A program made the position numbers and the translations under genes. A stretch of DNA of 64,000 nt. It comes from an uncultured Erysipelotrichaceae bacterium. GTDB lineage: Bacteria > Bacillota_I > Bacilli_A > Erysipelotrichales > Erysipelotrichaceae. Positions 992-61,978 of the stretch are shown here, piece by piece. The first letter of the stretch is position 1. Each line of letters opens with the position of its first letter. The notes below the pieces were generated by a model. The model had not been told where the DNA came from. It was given only the letters and a program-made list of their open reading frames with translations, and searched no databases. The stretch lies in the NCBI GenBank assembly GCA_947167125.1, contig CAMVGT010000004.1:1-64000 (forward strand), read 5' to 3'.

Positions 992-2317
992 ATGAAGAAG
1001 TATAACGTATGTATCGTCGGCGGAGGAAGCACTTATACGCCGGGTTTCCTGAAATCGTTTGTAAGACTGCAGAATGAATTCCCTATGAATAAACTGGTCC
1101 TGTTTGATATTGATGCTGAAAGACAGCAACCGATCGGAGAATTTGGAAAGATCCTGTTCTCCGAAAGATTTCCGGAGCTGGATTTCTCCTATACAACAGA
1201 TCCTGCTGAAGCGTATAAAGACATGGACTTCATCTTCATGCAGATGAGAGCGGGTGGTCTGCAAATGCGCAGAGAAGATGAACACATTCCTCTGCATCTT
1301 GGCAGAATCGGCCAGGAAACATGCGGGGCTGGGGGAATGGCATATGGCCTGAGATCCTGTGTTGACATGATCGAGGCAATTCATCAGATCCGTCAGTATT
1401 CTCCCAATGCATGGATTTTGAACTATTCCAACCCGGCTGCAATTGTAGCGGAAGCCCTCAGAAGGGAATTCCCGGATGACAACCGGATTCTGAATATCTG
1501 CGATCAGCCGGAAAACATCATGCGTTCTGTTTCCAGACTGCTGAATGTTTCCTGGGAGGAACTTGATCCGGTTTACTTCGGTCTGAATCACTATGGCTGG
1601 TTCACACACGTTTATGACAGAAAAACCGGTAAGGATCTGCTTCCTGAGATCAAAAAGATCATCAAAGAAAAAGGATTCCTTCCTCAGGATGCAGAGCAGC
1701 GTGATCAGTCCTGGCTCGATACATACGGCTTCGTACAGACTATGATGGAAGACTTTCCGGACTTTCTTCCGAATACATACGATGGATACTACCTTTATCC
1801 GGATTACAAGTTCTCTCATCTGAATCCCGACTACACAAGAGCAGATGAAGTGATTGACGGCAGGGAAAAGAGAGTCTTTGCCGAGTGCAGGGAAGTCATT
1901 GCCAGAGGCGAACTGGGTGACAGATTTGATACCATCTCAGACGCTCATGCCGAGATGATGATCAAAGTCGCGGAAGCAATCGCTTACAACAAAAATACAA
2001 GATTCATCGTTATTGTTAAAAATGAAGGCGCGATTGCCAACATGCAGGATGACGCCATGGTTGAGCTCGTCTGTGAACTCGGTATCAACGGTCCGAGAAG
2101 AATGGCTGTCGGCAACATTCCGCAGTTCTATCTTGGTCTGCTAGTCCAGCAGGTTTCCAGTGAGAAGCTGCTGGTTGACGCCTACTATGAGCATTCATAC
2201 CAGAAAGCCCTCGAAGCATTCACACTCAACCGTCTGATCAACGACGCTAAGAAGGCGCGTCAGATTCTGGACGCCATGATTGAAGTAAACAAAGGCATGT
2301 GGCCTGAACTGAAATAA
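992..2317 (+). CDS. glvA: 6-phospho-alpha-glucosidase (GH4, maltose-6'-phosphate glucosidase)
   Basis: Cytoplasmic NAD+- and metal-dependent GH4 enzyme that splits maltose 6'-phosphate and related phospho-alpha-glucosides delivered by the PTS. The 441-residue protein has the N-terminal dinucleotide motif VGGGSTYTPG (9-18), the CGAGG block (111-115), NYSNPAA (144-150), metal-site Cys170-Asp171 in NICD and His200 in GLNH. The CGxGG and NICD motifs and overall pattern follow GlvA rather than beta-specific GH4 enzymes. The start at 992 follows AGGAGGAAAGGT; the open frame upstream to 869 adds 41 residues foreign to the family. First gene of a PTS operon with EIICB 12 bases downstream. Confidence 0.88.
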   Translation: MKKYNVCIVGGGSTYTPGFLKSFVRLQNEFPMNKLVLFDIDAERQQPIGEFGKILFSERFPELDFSYTTDPAEAYKDMDFIFMQMRAGGLQMRREDEHIPLHLGRIGQETCGAGGMAYGLRSCVDMIEAIHQIRQYSPNAWILNYSNPAAIVAEALRREFPDDNRILNICDQPENIMRSVSRLLNVSWEELDPVYFGLNHYGWFTHVYDRKTGKDLLPEIKKIIKEKGFLPQDAEQRDQSWLDTYGFVQTMMEDFPDFLPNTYDGYYLYPDYKFSHLNPDYTRADEVIDGREKRVFAECREVIARGELGDRFDTISDAHAEMMIKVAEAIAYNKNTRFIVIVKNEGAIANMQDDAMVELVCELGINGPRRMAVGNIPQFYLGLLVQQVSSEKLLVDAYYEHSYQKALEAFTLNRLINDAKKARQILDAMIEVNKGMWPELK

Positions 2318-2329
2318 GAGGTGGCGGAA

Positions 2330-3856
2330 ATGAAGAAAAGCAGTATTATGGATTTCTTCTCAGCACTGGGAAGAAGCCTGATGATGCCGATCGCAGCCCT
2401 GGCTGCCTGCGGTATTGTGCTTGGTCTTACCTCTGCTCTGATGAAGGCGCAGGTTGTCGCTGCCGCCCCGTTCCTGGGTGAAGGACTTATCGGATTCATT
2501 ATTCTGGTTCTGAACAAGGTTTCGGGCGTTGTCTTCACTCTTCTTCCGGTTCTGTTTGCGATTTCCATCGCGATGGGCCTGGCGAAAGAAGAAAAGGAAG
2601 TCGCAGCGTTTGCCGGCTTCATCGGTTACTACACATTCCTCGTGGCAAGCTCTCTTGTCATCAACACCGGCGTCATGGACTTCTCTGTCATGAAGATTTC
2701 CACCATTCTCGGTGTCGAAACTCTCGACATGGGAGCCGTGGCCGGCATTCTGATCGGTGTGCTCACTGCAAATCTTCATAACAAATACCACAAAGTCGTT
2801 TTCCCCGCTGCTGTTGCTTTCTATGGCGGCAAGAGATTCGTCGCTCTGATCGTTACCCTGGCAGCTGCTGCCCTTGGTATCATCAGTCCGTTTGTCTGGC
2901 AGCCGTTATCAACCGGCATCAACGGACTCGGTAGTCTGATCCACAGCATGGGCGTTGCCGGCGTCGGCCTGTTCGGTCTGCTGGAAAGAGCTCTTATCCC
3001 GACCGGTCTTCATCATGTGCTCAACGGCTTATTCCGTACAACTCCCCTCGGCGGCACATATGAAGGCGTGGAAGGCTGCCTGAATATCTTCCTGCAGTTT
3101 GTCGACAAGGTTCCACTCAAGGAACTGGCTCCGTTCACACAGTTCCTCGGCCAGGGCAAGATGCCGTTCATGATGTTCGGTCTGCCGGCTGCCGCTCTTG
3201 CAATCTACCAGACTTCTCCTGAAGAAAAGAAGGCAAAGGTCAAGGCACTCATGATTGCAGGTGTTGCGGCCAGCCTTGTCTCAGGCATTACCGAACCGCT
3301 TGAATTCTCCTTCATGTTCATCGCACCTGCACTGTTCGGCTTTCATGCCATCATGGGTGGAATCTCCTTCGCACTGATGGCAGCTCTCGGCGTCATTATC
3401 GGAAACACTGGCGGCGGTTTGATCGACTTCTTCATCTGGGGTGTCTTCCAGCCGGGTTCCAACTGGTACTGGGTCATTGTCGTCGGCATTGCCTACGCGT
3501 TTATCTACTACTTTGTCTTCCGCTGGTATCTCTCAAAGAACAATATTTCTGTGGACGTATCGGATGATGATGACGAAGCAGATAGCTCTGTTTCTGTCGA
3601 TGAAAAGATGCAGAAAACAGCTTCCGTCATCATTGAAGGATTAGGCGGCTATGACAATATCGTTGCTGTAAACAACTGTATTTCCAGACTTCGTGTGGAC
3701 GTTAAAGATATGAGTAAAGTCAATGAGGAGATGCTGAAAAAGACAGGCTCTCTCGGCATTATCAAACCCAGCGAAACACATATCCAGGTTATTTACGGAC
3801 CGAAGGTGGAACAGGTCGCGGATGCTGTGCGCCAGGTTATGAAAATGTACGAATAA
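2330..3856 (+). CDS. glvC: PTS alpha-glucoside transporter, EIICB
   Basis: Membrane permease that imports and phosphorylates maltose-type alpha-glucosides. The 508-residue protein has a glucose-family EIIC domain with about ten membrane segments (1-410), a short acidic linker, and a C-terminal EIIB domain with the phosphorylated cysteine in NNCISRLR (Cys450). No EIIA domain is attached; the next gene supplies it. The ATG at 2330 lies 5 bases after GAGGTGG; a GTG at 2321 is an alternative start with poor spacing. Its pairing with a GH4 6-phospho-alpha-glucosidase fixes the substrate class, although the exact sugar is inferred. Confidence 0.88.
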   Translation: MKKSSIMDFFSALGRSLMMPIAALAACGIVLGLTSALMKAQVVAAAPFLGEGLIGFIILVLNKVSGVVFTLLPVLFAISIAMGLAKEEKEVAAFAGFIGYYTFLVASSLVINTGVMDFSVMKISTILGVETLDMGAVAGILIGVLTANLHNKYHKVVFPAAVAFYGGKRFVALIVTLAAAALGIISPFVWQPLSTGINGLGSLIHSMGVAGVGLFGLLERALIPTGLHHVLNGLFRTTPLGGTYEGVEGCLNIFLQFVDKVPLKELAPFTQFLGQGKMPFMMFGLPAAALAIYQTSPEEKKAKVKALMIAGVAASLVSGITEPLEFSFMFIAPALFGFHAIMGGISFALMAALGVIIGNTGGGLIDFFIWGVFQPGSNWYWVIVVGIAYAFIYYFVFRWYLSKNNISVDVSDDDDEADSSVSVDEKMQKTASVIIEGLGGYDNIVAVNNCISRLRVDVKDMSKVNEEMLKKTGSLGIIKPSETHIQVIYGPKVEQVADAVRQVMKMYE

Positions 3857-3875
3857 GACTTCGCCGGAGATCTGT

Positions 3876-4364
3876 ATGGGATTATTTGACAGATTCAGAA
3901 CAAAGGAAGCAGACACCTCAGAAGACTGGATTGCCGCAATGGCGGATGGCGAACTGATTGATGTGACTTCCGTCAGTGATCCGGTATTCGCCCAGAAGAT
4001 GATGGGGGAAAGCGTCGCGTTCCGCTATGAGGGCGATACTGTAACGGTCTGCGCGCCTGCTTCAGGTACATTGAGTGTAATGTTCCCGACCGGCCATGCC
4101 TTTGGGATCACCATGAAAAACGGTATGGAACTTCTGGTGCATATCGGCATCAATACTGTGGAAGCGAATGGCAGAGGATTCAAAGTTTTCAAAAAACAAG
4201 GTGACAAAGTCGCAGCCGGTGAACCGGTTGTGGAAGCTGATCTGAAACTGCTCTCACAGAACTATGACATGAGCACTATGTTGATTGTGACCAACGCAAA
4301 CGGCAGGAGCATCTCCTTCATTCCGCCCCGGCATGTTTCAAAAGGCATGCCGGTGATCCGCTGA
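3876..4364 (+). CDS. PTS glucose-family EIIA component
   Basis: Cytoplasmic phosphocarrier of 162 residues that passes phosphate from HPr to the EIIB cysteine. The EIIA-Glc fold is marked by CAPASGTL, His74 in PTGHAFG and the phosphorylated His89 in ELLVHIGINTVE, followed by KxGDxVxAGEP. It is separate from EIICB, unlike the fused EIICBA proteins common in this family, and ends the three-gene operon 20 bases downstream of the permease. An intrinsic terminator follows at once. It could also serve the other EIIA-less permeases of the cell. Confidence 0.88.
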   Translation: MGLFDRFRTKEADTSEDWIAAMADGELIDVTSVSDPVFAQKMMGESVAFRYEGDTVTVCAPASGTLSVMFPTGHAFGITMKNGMELLVHIGINTVEANGRGFKVFKKQGDKVAAGEPVVEADLKLLSQNYDMSTMLIVTNANGRSISFIPPRHVSKGMPVIR

Positions 4365-4374
4365 TCGAAGATAA

Positions 4375-4424
4375 AAGGTTTCATCCGGATGTATCAAGTA
4401 CATCTGAATGAAACCTTCTTTTTC
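4375..4424 (+). terminator. Terminator of the glv operon (bidirectional)
   Basis: AAGGTTTCAT (4375-4384) pairs with ATGAAACCTT (4408-4417), with further pairing inside, then CTTTTT. It lies between the converging glv and RpiR genes and can serve both. Confidence 0.75.
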
Positions 4425-4436
4425 GTATTCCCGCTT

Positions 4437-5183
4437 CTATTCTTCAGCAGACACGTCTTTGCGGCTGAGCAGCTCTATGAGAATCTGGACAATCAGCAGG
4501 GCGGAAATCTTTCCCGGACTGTGATGGGGATCCGCCTGATCATCCGTCTGGATGACGATGTCCGCAAAGCGTAAATCACTTTCCACTTCAGATCCGCACA
4601 GCCAGATCACACGGGCTCCGTGATTTTTGAAACTTTGGATGATCGGACCATATTCTTTATGAGCGTGGTCAGAGATCATCAATAATACTGTGCCTTCACG
4701 GGCAGAACCGGAAATCGCCGAAAGCGCGTCCATCCAGTCAATCAGGATACATGGCATATCCACCGACATTAACATGTCGTACATATATCCGGCAGGAACA
4801 GCGGAAAGATTTCTTCCGTAAATATAGAATGATTCCGCCTGACGGATCAGCTGACAGATTTTCAGGATTTCCTCCTCATTGAGAGAAGCGCACATATCAC
4901 TGAGGGAAGCCAGCTGACGGGGAATGATTCCATAGACCGGCCTGCGTGATTCTTTTCTGTCAGAACGCAGCACATATTTCAGTTCATTGAACCCCTTAAG
5001 ACCGATGTGCTGGCAGAATCGGACAATGCTTGCGTTAGAGACATAAAGCTCATGGCACAGATCTTCCAGCGTCATCCATGCAGTCCGGGAAGAATTCTGT
5101 TGAATATAATCATAGATTCTCCGGTCGGTTTCAGAGAGGGAGGAAAGATCAACGGTACTCAGATATTCATTCATCCGGTTCAT
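4437..5183 (-). CDS. RpiR/MurR-family regulator, second of a coupled pair
   Basis: A 248-residue DNA-binding sugar-phosphate sensor. Residues 15-75 form the HTH_6 domain (SLSETDRRIYDYI, then VSNASIVRFCQHIGLKGFNELK), and the rest is a SIS phosphosugar-binding domain with the YIYGRNLSA segment. Its start overlaps the end of the upstream paralogue by 17 bases, so the two are translationally coupled. B. subtilis glv genes are controlled by the RpiR-type GlvR, which makes regulation of the converging alpha-glucoside operon the likely role. The effector is unknown. Confidence 0.8.
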   Translation of the reverse strand: MNRMNEYLSTVDLSSLSETDRRIYDYIQQNSSRTAWMTLEDLCHELYVSNASIVRFCQHIGLKGFNELKYVLRSDRKESRRPVYGIIPRQLASLSDMCASLNEEEILKICQLIRQAESFYIYGRNLSAVPAGYMYDMLMSVDMPCILIDWMDALSAISGSAREGTVLLMISDHAHKEYGPIIQSFKNHGARVIWLCGSEVESDLRFADIVIQTDDQADPHHSPGKISALLIVQILIELLSRKDVSAEE

Positions 5184-5955
5184 CTCCTCTCTTCAGCATT
5201 TGGTAGAAAGCGATCAATGTGTCAATGGTATAGAAAATACACAGCCTTGAAGTATATTCTGTTCCGTTGTTCTCTTTCGGATGTGTGAAAAAACGCAGAT
5301 TGTATCGGCAGTTCGCCGCAACCGGATTATTTGTATAAGGAGTGATTCCGACAGTAATAAGGTTATGAAGGCTGGCATTACGGGCAAGACTGACAGTTTT
5401 CCCCCATGTTCCGGAAGCACTGATGAAAATGATAATTGCATCATGAGGAATTGTATTGATCAAATGTTCAGTCATATTACCAGAATGAAGCTGAAAGACT
5501 TTCGGTCTGCCGCTGATCATCAGAAGTTTTTCAAGATAACGGACAAGACTGTCCGTTATGCCGCTGGGATAATAAAGGTATAAGGGGATATCTGAAAGCA
5601 GCAGGTTTGCAATCCTGTAAATATCATCATTCTCGAGAAGATTTGCTGTGCCTCGAATATCGGTTGTTATATCCGAAAGAATTGTTTCGAACGACAAATT
5701 TCCATCCGTTATGACCTCTTTTTCTTTAGGACTATCACTTTTGCCAAGTGCATATTTCAATTCGGAAAAGCCTGAAAATCCTATTTTCCGACAGAATCGA
5801 ATCACTGATGAGGGAGCACACGAAACTTCTGCTGCAAACTGCTGCACACTCATGTTGCAGATATCAGTTCCCCTCCCATAAATGTATTTCAGAATCTGGT
5901 TATCGCTTTCGTTCAGCCGGCGAAGTAGGTTGTCATCAATTTTCAAACTGATCAT
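5167..5955 (-). CDS. RpiR/MurR-family regulator, first of a coupled pair
   Basis: A 262-residue protein with an HTH_6 domain (LNESDNQILKYIYG, CAPSSVIRFCRKIGFSGF) and a SIS domain (PLYLYYPSG, then IIIFISASGTWGKT). I place the start at 5955 (MISLKIDDN) behind a GGCGGAG site; the frame is open to 6009 but those codons lack a ribosome-binding site. It is distinct in sequence from its downstream partner, so this is not a recent duplication. The pair may form heteromers or read two different phosphosugars for the glv genes. Confidence 0.8.
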   Translation of the reverse strand: MISLKIDDNLLRRLNESDNQILKYIYGRGTDICNMSVQQFAAEVSCAPSSVIRFCRKIGFSGFSELKYALGKSDSPKEKEVITDGNLSFETILSDITTDIRGTANLLENDDIYRIANLLLSDIPLYLYYPSGITDSLVRYLEKLLMISGRPKVFQLHSGNMTEHLINTIPHDAIIIFISASGTWGKTVSLARNASLHNLITVGITPYTNNPVAANCRYNLRFFTHPKENNGTEYTSRLCIFYTIDTLIAFYQMLKRGDEPDE

Positions 5956-27412: not shown

Positions 27413-27973
27413 ATGGAGGACAGAGAGATTGTTGAACTGTTCTTTGCGCGCGATGAACAGGCACTGAAGGAAGTTTCCCGGAAATACGGCTCCTACTGTC
27501 ACAGCATTGCGGACCATATTCTCGGCAATCATTCAGACGCGCAGGAGTGCGTGAATGATACCTGGATAAAGGCATGGAATTCGATCCCTCCGCAGAGACC
27601 TGAAAACATGTCTTCATTCCTCGGCAGGATTGCGAGAAACACCGCCCTGGACAGATGGAGACATGAAACCAGACAGAAAAGAGGCGGGATGAACTTTGAC
27701 GCCGTGCTGGATGAACTGGCAGAATGTGTTTCCGGTTCATCCGATCCCGAAGGCGAAGTCAGCAGGAAACTGCTTGCGGAAGAAATCGGAAAATTCCTGA
27801 GGAGCCTTGCAAAAACGGACCGCGTTCTGTTTGTGCTGCGCTATTGGCACGCATACAGTATTCCGGAAATTGCTGAAAAGACCGGAATTTCTGAAAACAA
27901 CATCTCTGTACGCTTAAGCCGCGTCAGAGGAAAACTCAGAACCTATCTGAAGAAAAGAGGGTATGACTTATGA
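27413..27973 (+). CDS. ECF RNA polymerase sigma factor
   Basis: A 186-residue sigma-70 factor of the ECF type. Region 2 covers about residues 20-80 (DAQECVNDTWIKAWNSIPP, then FLGRIARNTALDRWR), and region 4 covers 125-180 (SIPEIAEKTGISENNISVRLSRVRGKLR in two parts), with a short linker and no region 3. It starts behind AAGGGGG. Its stop overlaps the start of the membrane-anchored serpin gene in an ATGA, the position normally held by the anti-sigma factor. I saw no convincing ECF-type promoter upstream. Confidence 0.87.
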   Translation: MEDREIVELFFARDEQALKEVSRKYGSYCHSIADHILGNHSDAQECVNDTWIKAWNSIPPQRPENMSSFLGRIARNTALDRWRHETRQKRGGMNFDAVLDELAECVSGSSDPEGEVSRKLLAEEIGKFLRSLAKTDRVLFVLRYWHAYSIPEIAEKTGISENNISVRLSRVRGKLRTYLKKRGYDL

Positions 27974-29436
27974 AAAAGGAAGATCTGTTTGAAACAATCG
28001 GCGGACTGGATGAAAAGATTGTTCAGGAAGCCGAACAATATGAAAAGAAGAAAAACGGAAGCCTGATGAAATTCGCAATTCCTGCTTTATGCATGGCTCT
28101 TGCGGCAGCGGCAGTGATTGTTTTCCCGCGTCTGAATCAGAAAAATACAGAAGGACCGGCAGCGCAGAATTCAGCGAACCAGCCGGCCGCAGGAGGACTT
28201 CTGTATACAGTTAACGCGGTATGTCCGGAAGTGGAAGGGGAAAATATGGATAAGATGGAATATCTTTCTTCCGATGAACATTGGCAATGGATGCAGGAAA
28301 GACGGCAGTATTCTGAACAGTCGATGCTCATGCAGGGAGATATGGAAGGATATTACCGGGAAATGATGAATCTGATCTTGGCGGACAGTGAGGATAATAC
28401 AGTCTGCTCGCCATTGAACATCTGGTTTGCGCTGGCAATGCTTGGGGAAGTGACGGACGGAAATACCAGGCAGCAGATCCTGGATGTGCTGAATATCAAA
28501 GATACGCAGCAACTGCAGAATGCGGCAGAGATGCTGTTTATGAGCAGCTATGCGGATACGCCTGCTCTGACCAGCAGACTGGCGGATTCCTTCTGGCTCA
28601 ATCAATCGGTCAGCTATAAGGAAGAGACACTGAATACACTTGCACAGAAGTATTTCGCTTCTTCGCATGTCGGAACACCCGGCTCTCCGGAAATGGATGA
28701 AGCACTGCAGAAATGGACGGATTTCAATACCGGCGGAGAATTGAGCGAATATGCAAAGAATCTCAAACTGGATGAATCCACCGTGCTCGCGCTTGTGTCC
28801 GCAATTTACTACAAAGCTTCATGGATGGATGAATTTGAGCAGCAGAATACAACAAGGAATATATTCCACGGCACAAAGGGCGATACGGAAACACTGATGA
28901 TGAACGGCATGAGGAGCATGGGCGTTCTGGAAAAGGATTCATTCAGAGCTGTCCGCTTCCCGCTGACCGACAGCGGCTATATGTATTTCTTCCTGCCGTC
29001 TGAAAACAATCCGGATGCGCTTGTGAATGATCCGGAAGTATACCGGACATTGCGGGAAGAATGCACGGATGCGGAATGGACATACGCCATGGTTGATTTC
29101 AAAATCCCGAAATTCCGTGTTTCCGCGGATACGGATCTGCTTGAAGTTCTTCAAAAAGCAGGAATCACGGATGCGCTGGATCCGGCAAAGTCGGATTTCA
29201 CACCGCTGACAGATGACAGTGATGAAATCTATGTATCCGGCGGGGAACATGCGGCTATGGTGGAAATCGATGAACAGGGTGTGACCGGAGCCGCGTTTAC
29301 ACTGATGGCAAACGCGATGGGCGGGATTTTCAATAATCAGGTGATTGAATTCCATGTGGACAGACCGTTCTTCTTCGCTGTCACTTCTGTGGATCATTCA
29401 ATTCTCTTCTCCGGAATCATCCGCAATCTGCCGTAA
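27970..29436 (+). CDS. Membrane-anchored serpin in the anti-sigma position
   Basis: A 488-residue protein. The first 32 residues are cytoplasmic and charged, residues 33-53 form one membrane segment, 54-115 are a linker, and 115-488 are a serpin protease inhibitor exposed outside the cell. Serpin marks are SPLNIWFALAMLGEVTDG, NYSNP-like breach residues around SAIYYKASW, the hinge EQGVTGAAF (about 435-443) and FHVDRPFFFAV (461-471). The short residues at the hinge fit an inhibitory serpin. The reactive loop appears about four residues longer than usual, so the P1 residue cannot be placed safely. It is translationally coupled to the sigma factor. Confidence 0.83.
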   Translation: MKKEDLFETIGGLDEKIVQEAEQYEKKKNGSLMKFAIPALCMALAAAAVIVFPRLNQKNTEGPAAQNSANQPAAGGLLYTVNAVCPEVEGENMDKMEYLSSDEHWQWMQERRQYSEQSMLMQGDMEGYYREMMNLILADSEDNTVCSPLNIWFALAMLGEVTDGNTRQQILDVLNIKDTQQLQNAAEMLFMSSYADTPALTSRLADSFWLNQSVSYKEETLNTLAQKYFASSHVGTPGSPEMDEALQKWTDFNTGGELSEYAKNLKLDESTVLALVSAIYYKASWMDEFEQQNTTRNIFHGTKGDTETLMMNGMRSMGVLEKDSFRAVRFPLTDSGYMYFFLPSENNPDALVNDPEVYRTLREECTDAEWTYAMVDFKIPKFRVSADTDLLEVLQKAGITDALDPAKSDFTPLTDDSDEIYVSGGEHAAMVEIDEQGVTGAAFTLMANAMGGIFNNQVIEFHVDRPFFFAVTSVDHSILFSGIIRNLP

Positions 29437-29452
29437 TTCAATGACTGATCGG

Positions 29453-29480
29453 GAAACCGGCAACAGACCGGTTTCTTTTT
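29453..29480 (+). terminator. Terminator of the sigma-serpin operon
   Basis: GAAACCGG (29453-29460) and CCGGTTTC (29468-29475) pair, followed by TTTTTC. Confidence 0.78.
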
Positions 29481-51342: not shown

Positions 51343-54300
51343 ATGAGCAGATTCATATCCACATACAAAACGGTATTCAGAAAAATATGCAGAATCCTTG
51401 TCTGCATGATTCTTTCATGCGCCTTTATTGTGAACTTTGATATTCCGGCAGCTGCCGATGACTGGCTGACGGAAGAAGGAAATATCCAGAATGAGCAGCT
51501 GACCGGCGAACTGATGGGCTACAGCGACGGTTATTCCGCAATTCTCTATGACAATTCCAACGGACTTCCGACTTCAGAAGCCAATACCATCATCCAGTCG
51601 AAGGAAGGTTTCCTTTGGATCGGAAGCTATGCCGGACTTGTCCGCTATGACGGAAATACATTTGAAAGAATCGATTCCTTTTCCGGAATCACAACCGTCA
51701 AATGTCTTCATGAAGATTCCAAAGGCAAGCTGTGGATCGGCACCAATGAGAACGGCCTGTTTGTCATGGACCGGGATAAGACAAAGCATTTCACTACTGA
51801 AGACGGAATCGGTTCCTCATCCGTGCGCTCCATTGCGGAAGACAATCATGGAAGAGTCTATGTCGGAACCACTGCGGGTCTGTCTGTTTATGATGAAGAA
51901 TTCAATCAGTATTATGTCAATGATCCCCGTGTGTACAGGGTTTTTGTCCAGTCTCTCAGTGCAGGGGAAAACGGGGATATCTTCGGCATCACAAATGAAG
52001 GCGACGGATTCATCATCCGCGACGGAAGAATCCATTATTACTTCAGCCATGAAGACTCCAGATACGGCAATATCACCTGTCTTTCTGAAGATCCGTTCAA
52101 CCCCGGCTATGTTTATCTTGAAAGAGATACAGGTCTTCTGCTGCACTTTGCGTATGAAGATTATGCAAATACGCTGAGCCTTGTCGAGACTTACGGTCTT
52201 GTGCAGGCGCAGTACATCGCGCATGTCAATAACAAACTGTGGTTCTGTTTCAGAAACGGCATCGGCATTCTGAATGGCGACAGTGTCCAGCCGCTTAAAA
52301 ACCTGCCGATGGACAATTCGATTTACAAGATGACCGTGGACTATGAAGGCAACCTCTGGTTTGCCTCAACCAGACAGGGAATCATGAAAATCGTCCCGAA
52401 CCAGTTCTCGGATATTTTCCGGAAATACGATCTGGAAAGAGATGTAGTCAATTCCACATGCATCATGGATGACCAGCTGTTCATCGCAACGGATTCCGGC
52501 CTGAAAGTGATCGGGAGCGACGGAAGCGTTCTGCAGGAACTGCCGGTCACTTCAATCCGTTATCCTTCCGGGGAATATGTTTCAGATCAACCGGCCAATC
52601 TTCTGTCCATGCTTGACGGGGTCCGTATCCGTTCACTGATGCTTGACAGTCAGGGAAGACTATGGATTGCGGCATGGAGACAGTACGGCATCATCCGCTA
52701 TGATCATGGCGATATTGTGATTTACTCGGATGAAAACGGACTGTATTCCAAGAATGCGCGCCGCGTTGAGGAATGCGATGACGGAACATACCTTGCGGCT
52801 GTAACAGGCGGCGTCAATGTGATCAAAGGCGATGAGGTCGTTGCCGGCTACAGCTCGGAAGACGGAATTGCCAATACCGAGATCCTCTGTGTGGAAAACG
52901 GGGATAAGGGCGAAATCCTTTGCGGCACTGACGGCGGAGGCATCTATATTCTCAAAGACGGGAAAACCATCCATATCGGAGAAAACGAAGGACTGACCTC
53001 AGGATCGGTCATGCGGATCAAATATGATCCGGATTATGCGCTTTACTGGGTTGTGACAGGAAACTCCCTGGCATGGATTTCCGCAAATGACTATCAGCTT
53101 CATACCGTTGATCATTTCCCGTATTCCAATAACTTCGATCTTTATAAAAACAAAGACGATATCATGTGGATCCTCTCCAGCAACGGCATCTATGCCGTGC
53201 CGACGATCCAGCTGATCAACAACAAGGCAATCGATCCGCTTTACTACGGAATCTCCAACGGACTTCCCTGCATCGCAACCGCAAACTCCTACAGCTGGCT
53301 GACAGAGGAAGGCAATCTGTATATTGCCGGTGCGAGCGGTGTCGCAAGGATCAATATCAATACGCCGTATGTCAATATTACCAATCTGAAAGCATCCGTT
53401 CCCTATATCGAAGCGGATGATCAGCGGATCTGGCCGGATGCGGACGGGAATTTCAAGATTGATTCCAGTGTCAGGAAACTGACGATTCACACCTATGTAT
53501 ATAACTATTCTCTGATTGATCCGCAGGTAACATACCGTCTGAAAGGCTTCGACAATTCTTTCACGACAGTCAGAAGAAGCGATCTCGGACCCATCAGCTA
53601 TACAAACCTGAAGGGCGGAGAGTACAGCTTTATCATCCAGCTGGTTGACCAGATGGGCGGCGGCAACAAAGTCATGTCCGTGAAGATCACCAAAACCAAA
53701 GCAATCACCGAATACGTCTGGTTCTATGTCACCGTGATTTCCGCTGCTCTGCTTCTGATGATACTGGGAGTCAGAAGCTATATCCGCTACACAATCAGAA
53801 AAATGGAAAAGAAGCACAAAATTGAAACGGAAAATGAGCGGATCAGAATGGAACTGAATACGGCAAGCGGCATCCAGCACAGTATGGTTCCGCATGATTT
53901 CCCGCCGTATTCCGATCAGAACGAATTCAATATCTTTGCCGTAATGGATCCGGCAAGAGAAGTGGGCGGAGATTTCTATGATTACTTCATGATCGACGAT
54001 GATCATCTCTGCCTTGTAATCGCCGATGTTTCCGGAAAGGGAATTCCGGCAGCGCTGTTTATGATGATGTCCAAAATCGTCGTGCAGAGCTACGCCTCCA
54101 TGGGCCCTTCGCCGGCAGATATTCTCACCCGTACAAATGAAAAACTGTGTGAGAACAATCCGGTTGAGATGTTTGTGACAGTATGGCTGGGAATTCTGGA
54201 AATCAGCACCGGAAAACTGACAGCGGCCAATGCCGGACATGAATATCCGTTCATCATGAAAAACGGACAGTTCTCGCTGCTGAAGGACAAGCATGGATTT

Positions 54301-54585
54301 GTCATCGGCGGCATGTCGGGAATCAAATATAAGGAATATGATCTGACCCTTGAACCGGGTGATAGATTATTCATTTATACCGACGGCGTTCCGGAAGCGA
54401 CAGACGCGAACAAGAATATGTTCGGTGAAGAAAATCTCCTGAAAGCACTGAACAGGAATCCGGGAGGAACTCCGGAAGACATCCTGGAAAATGTCATCAA
54501 GGCGGTCAATGATTTTGTCAAAGACGCTGAGCAGTTCGACGATCTGACCATGCTGTGTCTGGAATATAACGGAAAACAGAAATGA
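51343..54585 (+). CDS. Beta-propeller sensor with Y_Y_Y and SpoIIE phosphatase domains
   Basis: A 1080-residue transmembrane protein. After a signal-anchor (15-38) come two runs of Reg_prop beta-propeller repeats outside the cell (GFLWIGSYAGLVRYDG, GKLWIGTNENGLF, RLWIAAWRQYGIIRYD and others), a Y_Y_Y domain (about 690-785), one membrane segment (790-813), a coiled-coil linker, and a PP2C/SpoIIE serine phosphatase (860-1075; DPAREVGGDFYDY, IADVSGKGIPAALF, NAGHEYP, LFIYTDGVPEATD, QFDDLTML). Metal-binding aspartates are all present. The sensor half is that of hybrid polysaccharide-sensing kinases, but with phosphatase output. No anti-sigma or antagonist gene is adjacent. Confidence 0.87.
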   Translation: MSRFISTYKTVFRKICRILVCMILSCAFIVNFDIPAAADDWLTEEGNIQNEQLTGELMGYSDGYSAILYDNSNGLPTSEANTIIQSKEGFLWIGSYAGLVRYDGNTFERIDSFSGITTVKCLHEDSKGKLWIGTNENGLFVMDRDKTKHFTTEDGIGSSSVRSIAEDNHGRVYVGTTAGLSVYDEEFNQYYVNDPRVYRVFVQSLSAGENGDIFGITNEGDGFIIRDGRIHYYFSHEDSRYGNITCLSEDPFNPGYVYLERDTGLLLHFAYEDYANTLSLVETYGLVQAQYIAHVNNKLWFCFRNGIGILNGDSVQPLKNLPMDNSIYKMTVDYEGNLWFASTRQGIMKIVPNQFSDIFRKYDLERDVVNSTCIMDDQLFIATDSGLKVIGSDGSVLQELPVTSIRYPSGEYVSDQPANLLSMLDGVRIRSLMLDSQGRLWIAAWRQYGIIRYDHGDIVIYSDENGLYSKNARRVEECDDGTYLAAVTGGVNVIKGDEVVAGYSSEDGIANTEILCVENGDKGEILCGTDGGGIYILKDGKTIHIGENEGLTSGSVMRIKYDPDYALYWVVTGNSLAWISANDYQLHTVDHFPYSNNFDLYKNKDDIMWILSSNGIYAVPTIQLINNKAIDPLYYGISNGLPCIATANSYSWLTEEGNLYIAGASGVARININTPYVNITNLKASVPYIEADDQRIWPDADGNFKIDSSVRKLTIHTYVYNYSLIDPQVTYRLKGFDNSFTTVRRSDLGPISYTNLKGGEYSFIIQLVDQMGGGNKVMSVKITKTKAITEYVWFYVTVISAALLLMILGVRSYIRYTIRKMEKKHKIETENERIRMELNTASGIQHSMVPHDFPPYSDQNEFNIFAVMDPAREVGGDFYDYFMIDDDHLCLVIADVSGKGIPAALFMMMSKIVVQSYASMGPSPADILTRTNEKLCENNPVEMFVTVWLGILEISTGKLTAANAGHEYPFIMKNGQFSLLKDKHGFVIGGMSGIKYKEYDLTLEPGDRLFIYTDGVPEATDANKNMFGEENLLKALNRNPGGTPEDILENVIKAVNDFVKDAEQFDDLTMLCLEYNGKQK

Positions 54586-54627: not shown

Positions 54628-55440
54628 TTATATATTTCCAAGATACACATGCCGCAGATATTTTTCCGCAATTTCTTTCAGCCTGAAGAGAATCTGCGGA
54701 TCGGTCGGCGGAATGTGATAGCGGTAGCGGGGGAAATAGCGTGAAAGATGCAGGATCAGATCCGGATCCAGCGAAGCCAGCCATGAGGCATGTTCCTCCA
54801 TCAGTTCATCCGAATCATTTTTCCCGGGGATGATCAATGATGTTACTTCTGTATGTGTGCGCGGCACACAATAGGCAATGCATTTCTTTACGGTATTATA
54901 ATCCCCGGCAAGTTCCTGATAGAAAGCGCGGTCTCCTTTCAGATCGATATTCATCGCATCCGTATAAGGAATCAGCTTTTCCAGAATCTCCATACTGACG
55001 CATCCGTTTGTGACAAGCACGGTTTTCAGACCGTGCTTTTTCAGCAGGCGGGCACAGTCGAGAACATATTCATAGCTGATACACGGTTCATTATAGGTAA
55101 ATGCGATACCGATGCTTTCCGGATGGCGAAGGGCAATGGAAAGCAGCTGCTCAGGGCTGATGTACATTGTTTCTATATCATCTCTGGCGGAGATGGAATA
55201 ATTCTGACAGAAGGGACAGGCAAGATTGCAGCCGAAGCTCCCGACGGAGAGAATCTTTGAACCGGGATAGAATCCGTACAGCGGTTTCTTTTCAACCGGA
55301 TCAACCGCGACCGAGGTGAGTTTCCCGTAATTGCGGCATACATTTTTCCCGTTTTCATTCATCCTGGCTTTGCAGAAACCTGTCTGCCCGTCGTTCAGAT
55401 GGCAATGATGCGGACAGACTTCACAGATGATTTCAGACAT
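54628..55440 (-). CDS. amrS: AmmeMemoRadiSam system radical SAM enzyme
   Basis: A 270-residue radical SAM protein. The N-terminal CEVCPHHC is a first Cys group; FGCNLACPFCQNYSIS carries the CxxxCxxC that binds the SAM cluster. TYNEPCISYEYVLDCARL and VLVTNG are typical of this family, related to pyruvate formate-lyase activating enzymes but named for its constant linkage to Memo and AMMECR1 proteins. It overlaps the upstream AmrBA gene by 8 bases. The modification made is unknown. Confidence 0.87.
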   Translation of the reverse strand: MSEIICEVCPHHCHLNDGQTGFCKARMNENGKNVCRNYGKLTSVAVDPVEKKPLYGFYPGSKILSVGSFGCNLACPFCQNYSISARDDIETMYISPEQLLSIALRHPESIGIAFTYNEPCISYEYVLDCARLLKKHGLKTVLVTNGCVSMEILEKLIPYTDAMNIDLKGDRAFYQELAGDYNTVKKCIAYCVPRTHTEVTSLIIPGKNDSDELMEEHASWLASLDPDLILHLSRYFPRYRYHIPPTDPQILFRLKEIAEKYLRHVYLGNI

Positions 55441-56818
55441 GGCGGATTACCTCAAAGCGCTCGATGACCAGATCATCCGCATCCGGATCAAAGCCTCCTT
55501 TGGAACAGGCAATGGAGATCTGCTGTTCAACCGTATCAACACCTTCCAGATCCGGTAACAATAATCCTCTTCTGCCTCTGGAGGAACAGATGACACCGTA
55601 CTTCTTTGCGTCAAGCTGCGACCGGTCGTTCACAGGCTCTGCTTTCCCCAGCACATCGACATTGATTTCCAGGAAGGGAAGCTCCTCTTCTGAAACCGGG
55701 CTGAATCTTGGATCGCGTGAACATGCACTGACCGCATTGTCGATGATTTCCTTTGCCAGCGAATTCTTCACGGCTGAAATGGTGCCGATGCAGCCGCGCA
55801 GATTGCCGTGTTCATGGATTGACACAAAGCATCCTGCCCGGTTTGTCTTCAGTTCTTCAGGAAGCCCATCCGGCATCGGAAGAACCAGTCCGGTGCGGAC
55901 ATGGTATTCAACGGATTGTCTTGCCAGCTGAACATAAGGATCGGATGAAGCAGATGAAGACTGTATTCTGGACTTTTCTTTGTCTTCATACTGTTTCAAA
56001 AAATGCCTGTTTTCATCTTTACCGCCGATCTCATATGTAATGATTCCGTAGCCGACACCGAAAGTCGCTTCATGCGAAAGAACGTGCGGGGTGACTGAAA
56101 TACCATCCAGGATTCCTGCCAGAATCACAAAGGCCCTGTGTCCGCATTCCATGCAGGCATCCAGGAAAGAAGGGGAGTAGCCGAACAGTTCATCAAACCG
56201 TCCGCTGCCCATTGTCTTCATGATCTTTTCATCATATTCAGGACCTTCCGGCTTGAATCCATAAGGACCGTCTGTCTTCTGGCAATGTGCCAGATCGCCG
56301 CTGGCGATCACTGCGATTCTGCGGTTCAGCAGTTCAGCTGTTTTAGCGATATACTGACCGAAGCGGTAGTGCATCGGCAGGGACAGTCCGCTGAGTCCGA
56401 TCCGCACAATCGGACAGTCGGGCAGGTAAGGCTTCAGGAAATAAAGCGGCACCATCGTTCCATGGTCAAGATCCGGATCCTTGTCATATTCAGTTCCGCC
56501 GGGAAAACCGGCCTGTTCCAGCATCTCTGTCAGCGTGTGTGTAAATTCTTCATCATATTCTTTTTCAAATTCCACCCGCGGCGCACGGAAACGGGCCATA
56601 TCTCCATATGCCTTTGAACCTTTGGAAATGTTGAACCAGTCTCTGTACATTAATGCGTGCGGAGAAAGAATGACAACAGTATCCGGATTTGCGCCGGCTA
56701 TTTCCTTCATTGCCTGATCATAGGCCTGCAATGTATCGGAAATCTTCTGTTCCTCACCTTTTCCGACTTCATGCAATGCAATCGGAGGATGGGGAACCAT
56801 GACAGCTTTTACAATCAT
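55433..56818 (-). CDS. AmmeMemoRadiSam proteins B and A fused (Memo-AMMECR1)
   Basis: A 461-residue fusion. Residues 1-270 are a Memo/LigB-type dioxygenase-fold domain (VMVPHPPIALHEVG, ILSPHALMYRDWF, LDHGTMVPLYFL, ASGDLAHC), with His residues that could bind a metal. Residues 290-461 are an AMMECR1 domain with GCFVSIHEHGNLRGCIGTI. The start at 56818 follows AGGAGG. With AmrS it makes the complete three-part system in two genes. Biological role in bacteria unsettled. Confidence 0.87.
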   Translation of the reverse strand: MIVKAVMVPHPPIALHEVGKGEEQKISDTLQAYDQAMKEIAGANPDTVVILSPHALMYRDWFNISKGSKAYGDMARFRAPRVEFEKEYDEEFTHTLTEMLEQAGFPGGTEYDKDPDLDHGTMVPLYFLKPYLPDCPIVRIGLSGLSLPMHYRFGQYIAKTAELLNRRIAVIASGDLAHCQKTDGPYGFKPEGPEYDEKIMKTMGSGRFDELFGYSPSFLDACMECGHRAFVILAGILDGISVTPHVLSHEATFGVGYGIITYEIGGKDENRHFLKQYEDKEKSRIQSSSASSDPYVQLARQSVEYHVRTGLVLPMPDGLPEELKTNRAGCFVSIHEHGNLRGCIGTISAVKNSLAKEIIDNAVSACSRDPRFSPVSEEELPFLEINVDVLGKAEPVNDRSQLDAKKYGVICSSRGRRGLLLPDLEGVDTVEQQISIACSKGGFDPDADDLVIERFEVIRHV

Positions 56819-56904
56819 AAGAGCCTCCTGTTTCATCGATTATCTTTACATCATTTCGTCAATTTCATTATACCTGTGTGCAGAAAACGCAGGACACATA
56901 AAAC

Positions 56905-60616: not shown

Positions 60617-61978
60617 TTATGCAGACTTTTTGACCATAGATGCTCTGTTGGAAAGCGGTATAACAATATTTGAACAAACAAGCATAATCAGATCCACAAG
60701 GTTGGTCAGATTTCTGAATCCAAAGGACCTGTGGATCAGAAGGCTGATCTTGTTGTTATTCGCTTCCACTCTGGCATTACTGATACCCGTTCGTATGAAG
60801 TTCATGATGAATTCCTTATGCCGCTTGATCTTCCGTCCCAGTTCGACAAATGTTGGTATCCTGCATCTCTGTGCCCATGACAGCCAATGATTCAGTTCCA
60901 TCTCTGCTTTGATCGGATCTTTGGTCTTCAGCAGAAGTCTCAATGATTCCTTCATCATATATGCACGGTACAGGCGATTGTCATTTGCCTGTATCATTGC
61001 CAGCTTCACTTCCTGATTCTCTGTCAGATTCTCAGGTGCTTTGCCTAATGCGTAACGGCTGTTCTTGATCTCTTTGGCCCTTTCCTTAGCGGTTGACAGG
61101 ATCTTTGATGCCTGATCATTTTCTGCCGGTCTTCCACGTCCGCGTTTGATTTCTTTCTTCAGTGTTTTGAGTTCATTGTTGGCTTCTCTCCAGGCTTCCT
61201 TGCGCAGCTCATCCAAAGCCTGCGTTGCCCATTCAACGACATGAAAAGGATCCGTACACCTGCAGGCATTATTGCAGTATTCATCAACACAGGCTGTGAT
61301 CCATCTTGCACCGTCTCCGGATACCACTTCAATGGCATCCCTCTGTTCCTGTGTGAGCTGCTGAAAGAAAGCCTCCAGCACAGATTTTCCATGGCCTTCA
61401 GCCACCCACACAACGGTATTGGTGTCATGATTTACTACGGTTGTGATGTACTTATGTCCTTTGGAATATGAGGTTTCATCAATTCCTATCCGCTTGAGCT
61501 CATCCAGTCTCGATGAAGTATCCGGCTCAAGATATTCTCTGGCCCTGGATACACATCTGCCGACTGTTTCCCAGGATATCCGCATATAGGAGGATACTGC
61601 ACTCTTGTTCAGTCTTCTGGCCATCCAGGCAACAGTCAGATCAAAATCCTTGGTAAATCTGCTTTTTGGAAAAGCCCATGGAACCGCAGCTGTGACTACT
61701 CCATGCACAGGGCATGTTACTCTGGGAGATTCACTCTCGATCTCAACGAGAAGTCCGCCGAAGTCAAGTGCGCGCCAATGACTCAGCTCATGGGAAGAAT
61801 CGTAGATAGGCAGCCGCCTGCCATTATCGCAATACGGGCATCTGCACTGCTTATTCTTATGCGGTCTTGCGTGGACGATCAGCTTGGATTCGCCTTTCGC
61901 TGTTTTAGTCAATTCCATGGAATTGACAACCATACTCTTGACACCAAGAGCTTTCTTCACTACCGTATTAACTGTCAT
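60617..61978 (-). CDS. ISL3-family transposase
   Basis: A 453-residue transposase. An N-terminal zinc ribbon (QCRCPYCDNGRRL, then TCPVHG) is followed by a helix-turn-helix (LNKSAVSSYMRISWETVGR), and a DDE core starting IGIDETSYSKGHKYITTVV, with the second Asp in TDPFHVVEWATQAL and the Glu in VEANNNKISLL. The protein is full length, so the element may still be mobile. Confidence 0.92.
   Translation of the reverse strand: MTVNTVVKKALGVKSMVVNSMELTKTAKGESKLIVHARPHKNKQCRCPYCDNGRRLPIYDSSHELSHWRALDFGGLLVEIESESPRVTCPVHGVVTAAVPWAFPKSRFTKDFDLTVAWMARRLNKSAVSSYMRISWETVGRCVSRAREYLEPDTSSRLDELKRIGIDETSYSKGHKYITTVVNHDTNTVVWVAEGHGKSVLEAFFQQLTQEQRDAIEVVSGDGARWITACVDEYCNNACRCTDPFHVVEWATQALDELRKEAWREANNELKTLKKEIKRGRGRPAENDQASKILSTAKERAKEIKNSRYALGKAPENLTENQEVKLAMIQANDNRLYRAYMMKESLRLLLKTKDPIKAEMELNHWLSWAQRCRIPTFVELGRKIKRHKEFIMNFIRTGISNARVEANNNKISLLIHRSFGFRNLTNLVDLIMLVCSNIVIPLSNRASMVKKSA

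Follow-up and report, generated by a model that had tools for sequence, protein, structure and literature searches.

A membrane-anchored serpin as a candidate anti-sigma factor of an extracytoplasmic function sigma factor in Bacillota

Membrane anti-sigma factors with exchangeable sensors have already been described, namely RsiV and the RsgI family, whereas a serpin in that role appeared to be new. Here we considered a stretch of 64,000 nucleotides (the window; positions 1 to 64,000 of contig CAMVGT010000004.1, assembly GCA_947167125.1) from an uncultured Erysipelotrichaceae bacterium, in which the gene for an extracytoplasmic function (ECF) sigma factor was overlapped by the gene for a membrane-anchored serpin. 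No serpin acting as an anti-sigma factor was found in the open literature searched, and an earlier mention in subscription papers or in the ECF reclassification (doi 10.1093/nar/gkaa1229) is possible.

The window locus resembled the RsiV/SigV system of Bacillus subtilis and Clostridioides difficile in its ECF operon, short cytoplasmic segment, single membrane helix and extracellular domain. Lysozyme is bound and inhibited by the anti-sigma factor RsiV, which signal peptidase and RasP subsequently cleave (PMC5014341). The extracellular domain of RsiV thus inhibits the attacking host enzyme that it binds, and the window protein would likewise act via regulated proteolysis. However, the outer domain of the window protein was a serpin rather than a lysozyme-binding domain, and its ligand would be a protease. 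The RsgI anti-sigma-I family from Clostridium thermocellum and its relatives offered a second likeness, since it combines one membrane anti-sigma design with interchangeable outer sensors, some of them enzyme-like. On the other hand, RsgI pairs with SigI, has an N-terminal domain of its own and senses polysaccharide, and the window protein had no RsgI match in Pfam.

By length alone, the cytoplasmic tip of the window protein was also comparable to class II-type anti-sigma factors (CnrY), where an ECF-binding part of fewer than 50 residues precedes the membrane helix. Class I anti-sigma domains (ASDI) are defined by an N-terminal domain of more than 50 amino acids with four helices (PMC7406223); the window protein fell outside this class, having about 32 cytoplasmic residues, two short helices and no Pfam anti-sigma match. 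With respect to the outer domain, the siropins of Eubacterium siraeum and the bifidobacterial serpins are likewise gut bacterial serpins with elastase-type targets. Expression of the Bifidobacterium breve serpin is protease-responsive and autoregulated, but it is controlled by the two-component system SerRK, and the literature searched contained no description of any serpin fused to an ECF-partner module.

The serpin gene behind the sigma factor gene

Judging from sequence, the serpin protein very probably serves as membrane anti-sigma factor to the ECF sigma factor whose gene precedes its own. A sequence-only reading of this DNA had placed the serpin gene at the usual anti-sigma position, overlapping the ECF gene, and the coordinates proved to be exact. 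It had also described an extracellular serpin that a single membrane helix joins to a short segment in the cytoplasm; the serpin was recovered by Pfam (6.9e-61) and by fold comparison (Z 40), and the architecture as a whole in an AlphaFold model. The locus comprised the following features.

27413..27973, + strand: ECF sigma factor, 186 amino acids, with sigma2 and sigma4 (Pfam, TIGR02937)
27970..29436, + strand: serpin and putative anti-sigma gene, 488 amino acids, with a 4-bp ATGA overlap with the 3' end of the sigma gene
27970..28065, + strand: residues 1-32, putative cytoplasmic ECF-partner module (MKKEDLFETIGGLDEKIVQEAE...), two short helices and then a basic stretch
28066..28131, + strand: residues 33-54, single membrane helix (hydropathy and model)
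28132..28203, + strand: residues 55-78, extracellular juxtamembrane linker, mostly disordered (predicted local distance difference test score, pLDDT, of the model)
28204..29433, + strand: residues 79-488, extracellular serpin domain (Pfam and fold match)
29272..29328, + strand: residues 435-453, reactive-loop hinge EQGVTGAAFTLMANAMGG, with P1 predicted as Gly451 from spacing only
29451..29477, + strand: intrinsic terminator, a 10-pair stem and T tail (fold z -3.4)

The ECF frame matched Sigma70_r2 (2.9e-13) and Sigma70_r4_2 (9.3e-13) in Pfam and sigma70-ECF TIGR02937 (1.9e-23) in NCBIfam. With sigma2 and sigma4, without sigma3, it belonged to the ECF class of about 150-200 amino acids, to which a fold search with the ECF of a relative also pointed. 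The 488-residue protein matched Serpin PF00079 over residues 136-485 with 206.9 bits against a cut-off of 27, and sequence matches to solved structures also backed its place in the serpin superfamily. Serpin was the only Pfam match; neither an RsiV-type lysozyme-binding domain nor an RsgI N-terminal anti-sigma-I domain was found. In the AlphaFold model, short helices at residues 3-11 and 15-25 were followed by the membrane helix, which coincided with a hydropathy peak of 2.3 at residues 35-53. The serpin domain started at about residue 78 and was modelled at pLDDT of about 90, while residues 51-75 of the linker region (pLDDT below 50) and the reactive loop (441-453) were disordered. The best structural matches to the model were all serpins (VIA-align Z 40, root-mean-square deviation 2.1, 348 residues). 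The basic residues ahead of the helix suggest that the tip faces the cytoplasm. With this predicted inside N-terminus, one membrane helix and an overlapping downstream position, the serpin gene had the layout of a membrane anti-sigma factor.

Since a strong intrinsic terminator lay 3' of the serpin gene, the unit consisted of two genes. The flanking genes were a small gene without a known family on the opposite strand and a glycoside hydrolase family 2 gene; therefore, no further anti-sigma candidate adjoined the pair. The serpin was the sole one found in the genome, which also contained a site-2 protease gene (PF02163, 4.2e-55).

A tip module shared among ECF partners

The tip belonged to a module that we defined in this analysis by the consensus MKKEDLxxAxxDIDxxxVxEA, located N-terminally in a protein encoded directly after an ECF gene. 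The window tip matched the corresponding profile at 3.4e-22, being itself one of the profile rows. Across 40 genomes of the genus, the profile matched at 34 places, and the surroundings were examined for 29 of them. At 25 of these 29 the tip was directly behind an ECF gene, and most such proteins were without a serpin; some profile rows came from the searched genomes, so that those matches were expected, but the ECF adjacency of the others was not built in. The remaining four were a contig edge, a truncated ECF, an unexplained case (L245) and a false match to a membrane helix (L259). The window genome had four further ECF genes, three with a tip-type partner and the fourth at a contig end. Thus, the window tip was common to ECF-overlapping non-serpin membrane proteins of the same genome and genus. 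Those module-bearing partners that lacked a serpin had no domain scoring above the Pfam cut-off.

For 24 non-redundant fused pairs, Mantel tests gave a correlation of 0.53 between tip and ECF distances, and of 0.50 when the serpin was accounted for (p 2e-4), against -0.07 between tip and serpin given the ECF (p 0.72). Since the tip distances tracked the ECF and not the serpin, the travelling unit was the ECF together with the tip, and the serpin was what could be exchanged. An anti-sigma segment whose outer domain can be swapped would be expected to show this pattern. The earlier interpretation, in which attack on the serpin could free sigma, was supported in part: the serpin gene stood in the anti-sigma place, its tip module was shared with other ECF partners, and the tip followed the ECF. 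That the tip binds sigma is a strong inference from the gene order, the reuse of the module and its co-variation with the ECF.

A separate observation concerned the sigma factor itself. Its first 20 residues (MEDREIVELFFARDEQALKE, 27413-27475) resembled the tip (MKKEDLFETIGGLDEKIVQEA, 27970-28035), and MAFFT repeatedly laid tips on ECF N-termini. This resemblance could be chance or mimicry.

Recurrence and origin of the ECF-serpin pairing

A survey of ECF-serpin gene pairs, proposed in the sequence-only reading as a check, covered the genus and class of the window and two Clostridia families that were reached via its two nearest named relatives, and included the gene surroundings. Among 217 non-redundant serpin genes, 42 of the 54 serpins with a tip plus helix were directly behind an ECF gene (42 versus 12), whereas other serpins, carrying a signal peptide or being lipoproteins, were so in only 3 of 157 (3 versus 154; Fisher 1e-29); part of the loci had been picked by open-frame length and not by ECF presence, which inflated the share of fused cases but did not create the association. 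The three exceptions turned out on reading to be tip-type proteins that had been miscalled because their start was wrong or their helix contained a cysteine. An ECF with an overlapping or adjoining membrane serpin was found at 45 non-redundant serpin loci from several families.

Related loci are not independent, and therefore phylogenetically independent pairs were taken from the serpin tree. About 10 pairs were concordant and none was discordant (p 0.002). The fused state needed 21 changes on this tree, at least 13 of them forced by well-supported branches, although the exact number was soft because the FastTree topology had some long branches. Chance adjacency of ECF and serpin genes was rejected on the Fisher test and the independent pairs; the pairing recurred.

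In a second design, the short tip was on a membrane protein of its own (164-294 residues), encoded in one operon with an ECF gene and a lipoprotein serpin gene. This design accounted for 23 serpin genes and was common in Clostridia, and at L025 and L029 it occurred with the window's own module type. The ECFs partnered with the 'EYTAEVLRR' module had 13-22% identity to the sigma factor of the relative L227, compared to mostly 33-49% for those partnered with the window's module type; module types thus followed the sigma clade. Because of this and the existence of two gene designs, it is probable that neighbouring genes became fused on more than one occasion, and the tree cannot separate gain from loss. 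Several fused ECF-serpins from other families of the class (L055, L056, L061, L069 and L080) had very different tips and mostly unrecognisable hinges, which suggests that other ECF groups were joined to serpins independently.

A few loci deviated from the common arrangements. At L217, two fused serpins stood in tandem behind one ECF (1498-3000 and 3755-5221), and the second copy had lost the tip consensus but kept the basic stretch and the membrane helix. L181 had a short tip-bearing gene (2931-3617, 228 amino acids) that still scored as serpin-like, followed directly by a lipoprotein serpin (1492-2913); the short gene may be what is left of a disrupted fusion, the serpin after it being a different one. 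At L026, a truncated ECF gene (849-1301, 150 amino acids) was located 199 bases ahead of an intact fused serpin (1501-2904).

Proposed protease sensing and competing explanations

Every one of the 29 fused serpins with the window's type of module had a recognisable mobile hinge, in which P15 was Gly and P12-P10 were small. Their P1, predicted by fixed spacing, was Ala or Gly in 23 of the 29, as for elastase-type targets. The window hinge EQG-V-T-G-A-A-F, with Gly at P15 and G-A-A at P12-P10, fitted the pattern of inhibitory serpins. By analogy, the serpin may be a protease sensor, and a protease attack on it may free sigma by regulated proteolysis, a proposal that we regard as evenly poised. 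In such a system, the 32-residue inner tip would hold sigma at the membrane, and the outer serpin would be both trap and sensor, its reactive loop being attacked by elastase- or subtilisin-like gut proteases. Loop cleavage and insertion would open the serpin protein to cutting by a site-1 protease, followed by the site-2 protease of the genome. The freed sigma would transcribe its own operon and further protective genes. These release steps were derived from the analogy with RsiV and lysozyme.

We hold this best explanation as a whole, namely an anti-sigma serpin that is trap and sensor with a two-step release, with half confidence. Its extension to a modular ECF anti-sigma family of gut and rumen Bacillota is put forward tentatively, with slightly less than half confidence; here serpins would have been repeatedly recruited as irreversible, single-use protease sensors, where the sensor is the inhibitor and attack is read out as transcription. 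If true, this would explain the purpose of many membrane serpins of gut bacteria, give commensals a transcriptional route to detect inflammation-type proteases such as elastase, and mean that bacteria put the shape change of serpins to use in signalling. Because fusions, unfused operons and single serpins all occur naturally, the sensing question is directly testable.

Several points weighed against the anti-sigma and sensor roles. No Pfam family, including the known anti-sigma domains, matched the tip of the window protein. The co-variation of tip and ECF could partly come from co-inheritance of neighbouring DNA. An AlphaFold chain of ECF plus tip from L227, where the sigma and serpin genes were in frame and the stop was read through with an artificial 8-residue linker, modelled the tip helices at pLDDT of about 76-81 and gave no interface information. 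When a promoter motif common to the ECFs was sought, only T-rich and ribosome-site-like patterns came up. Finally, P14 of the window hinge was Val, where Thr or Ser is usual, and only 4 of 16 fused serpins of other module types had a recognisable hinge. Thus, inhibition cannot be essential in all fused serpins, and the serpin domains of those other types may have lost it.

The alternative that survived best, although we consider it unlikely, was that the tip does act as an anti-sigma segment while the serpin is an effector only. Sigma would then be freed by another signal, such as envelope stress or the state of the site-1 protease, and would raise the operon; the fusion would merely anchor a defence serpin and tie its dose to sigma. 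The 23 serpin genes in unfused operons with an anti-sigma-like membrane protein, including those with the window's module, fit this arrangement, as does the inhibition of elastase-like host proteases by gut bacterial serpins (PMC5127057, PMC7822027). However, the repeated fusion (at least 13 changes) leaves the unit without any other extracellular sensor, and the module family places varied domains at the outer position, as expected of sensors. The sequence-only reading had itself offered a sigma factor that simply controls a defence serpin as its alternative, which stays alive because unfused lipoprotein-serpin operons are common in Clostridia. Sensing and defence can both be true together.

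It is improbable that the serpin reports its own exhaustion. The intact serpin would shield the cell and, once it was consumed, the same proteases would clip the disordered linker and so act as the site-1 protease; the serpin would set the threshold, and its shape change itself would carry no signal. The model had an exposed disordered linker of about 25 residues, and a SerU-dependent autoregulation with more serpin when proteolysis exceeds inhibition has been proposed in B. breve (PMC7822027). It is very improbable that the serpin domain senses a ligand instead of a protease, in the manner of carrier serpins that do not inhibit: the rarity of canonical hinges among other module types (4 of 16) is in line with it and carrier serpins were among the structural matches, which reflects the fold only, but each of the 29 fused serpins with the window's module kept its hinge. 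That the ECF-serpin adjacency is incidental and the tip has no contact with sigma is scarcely credible in view of the Fisher test (1e-29), the independent pairs, the module reuse and the ECF-tip co-variation.

Elsewhere in the window, three loci were assigned by reading only. A 1080-residue protein (51343-54585) had the look of a SpoIIE-type phosphatase with a propeller sensor attached. At 54628-56836, a radical-SAM gene and an AmmeMemo-like gene lay side by side and resembled an AmmeMemoRadiSam-type pair, and an ISL3-like transposase was located at 60617-61978.
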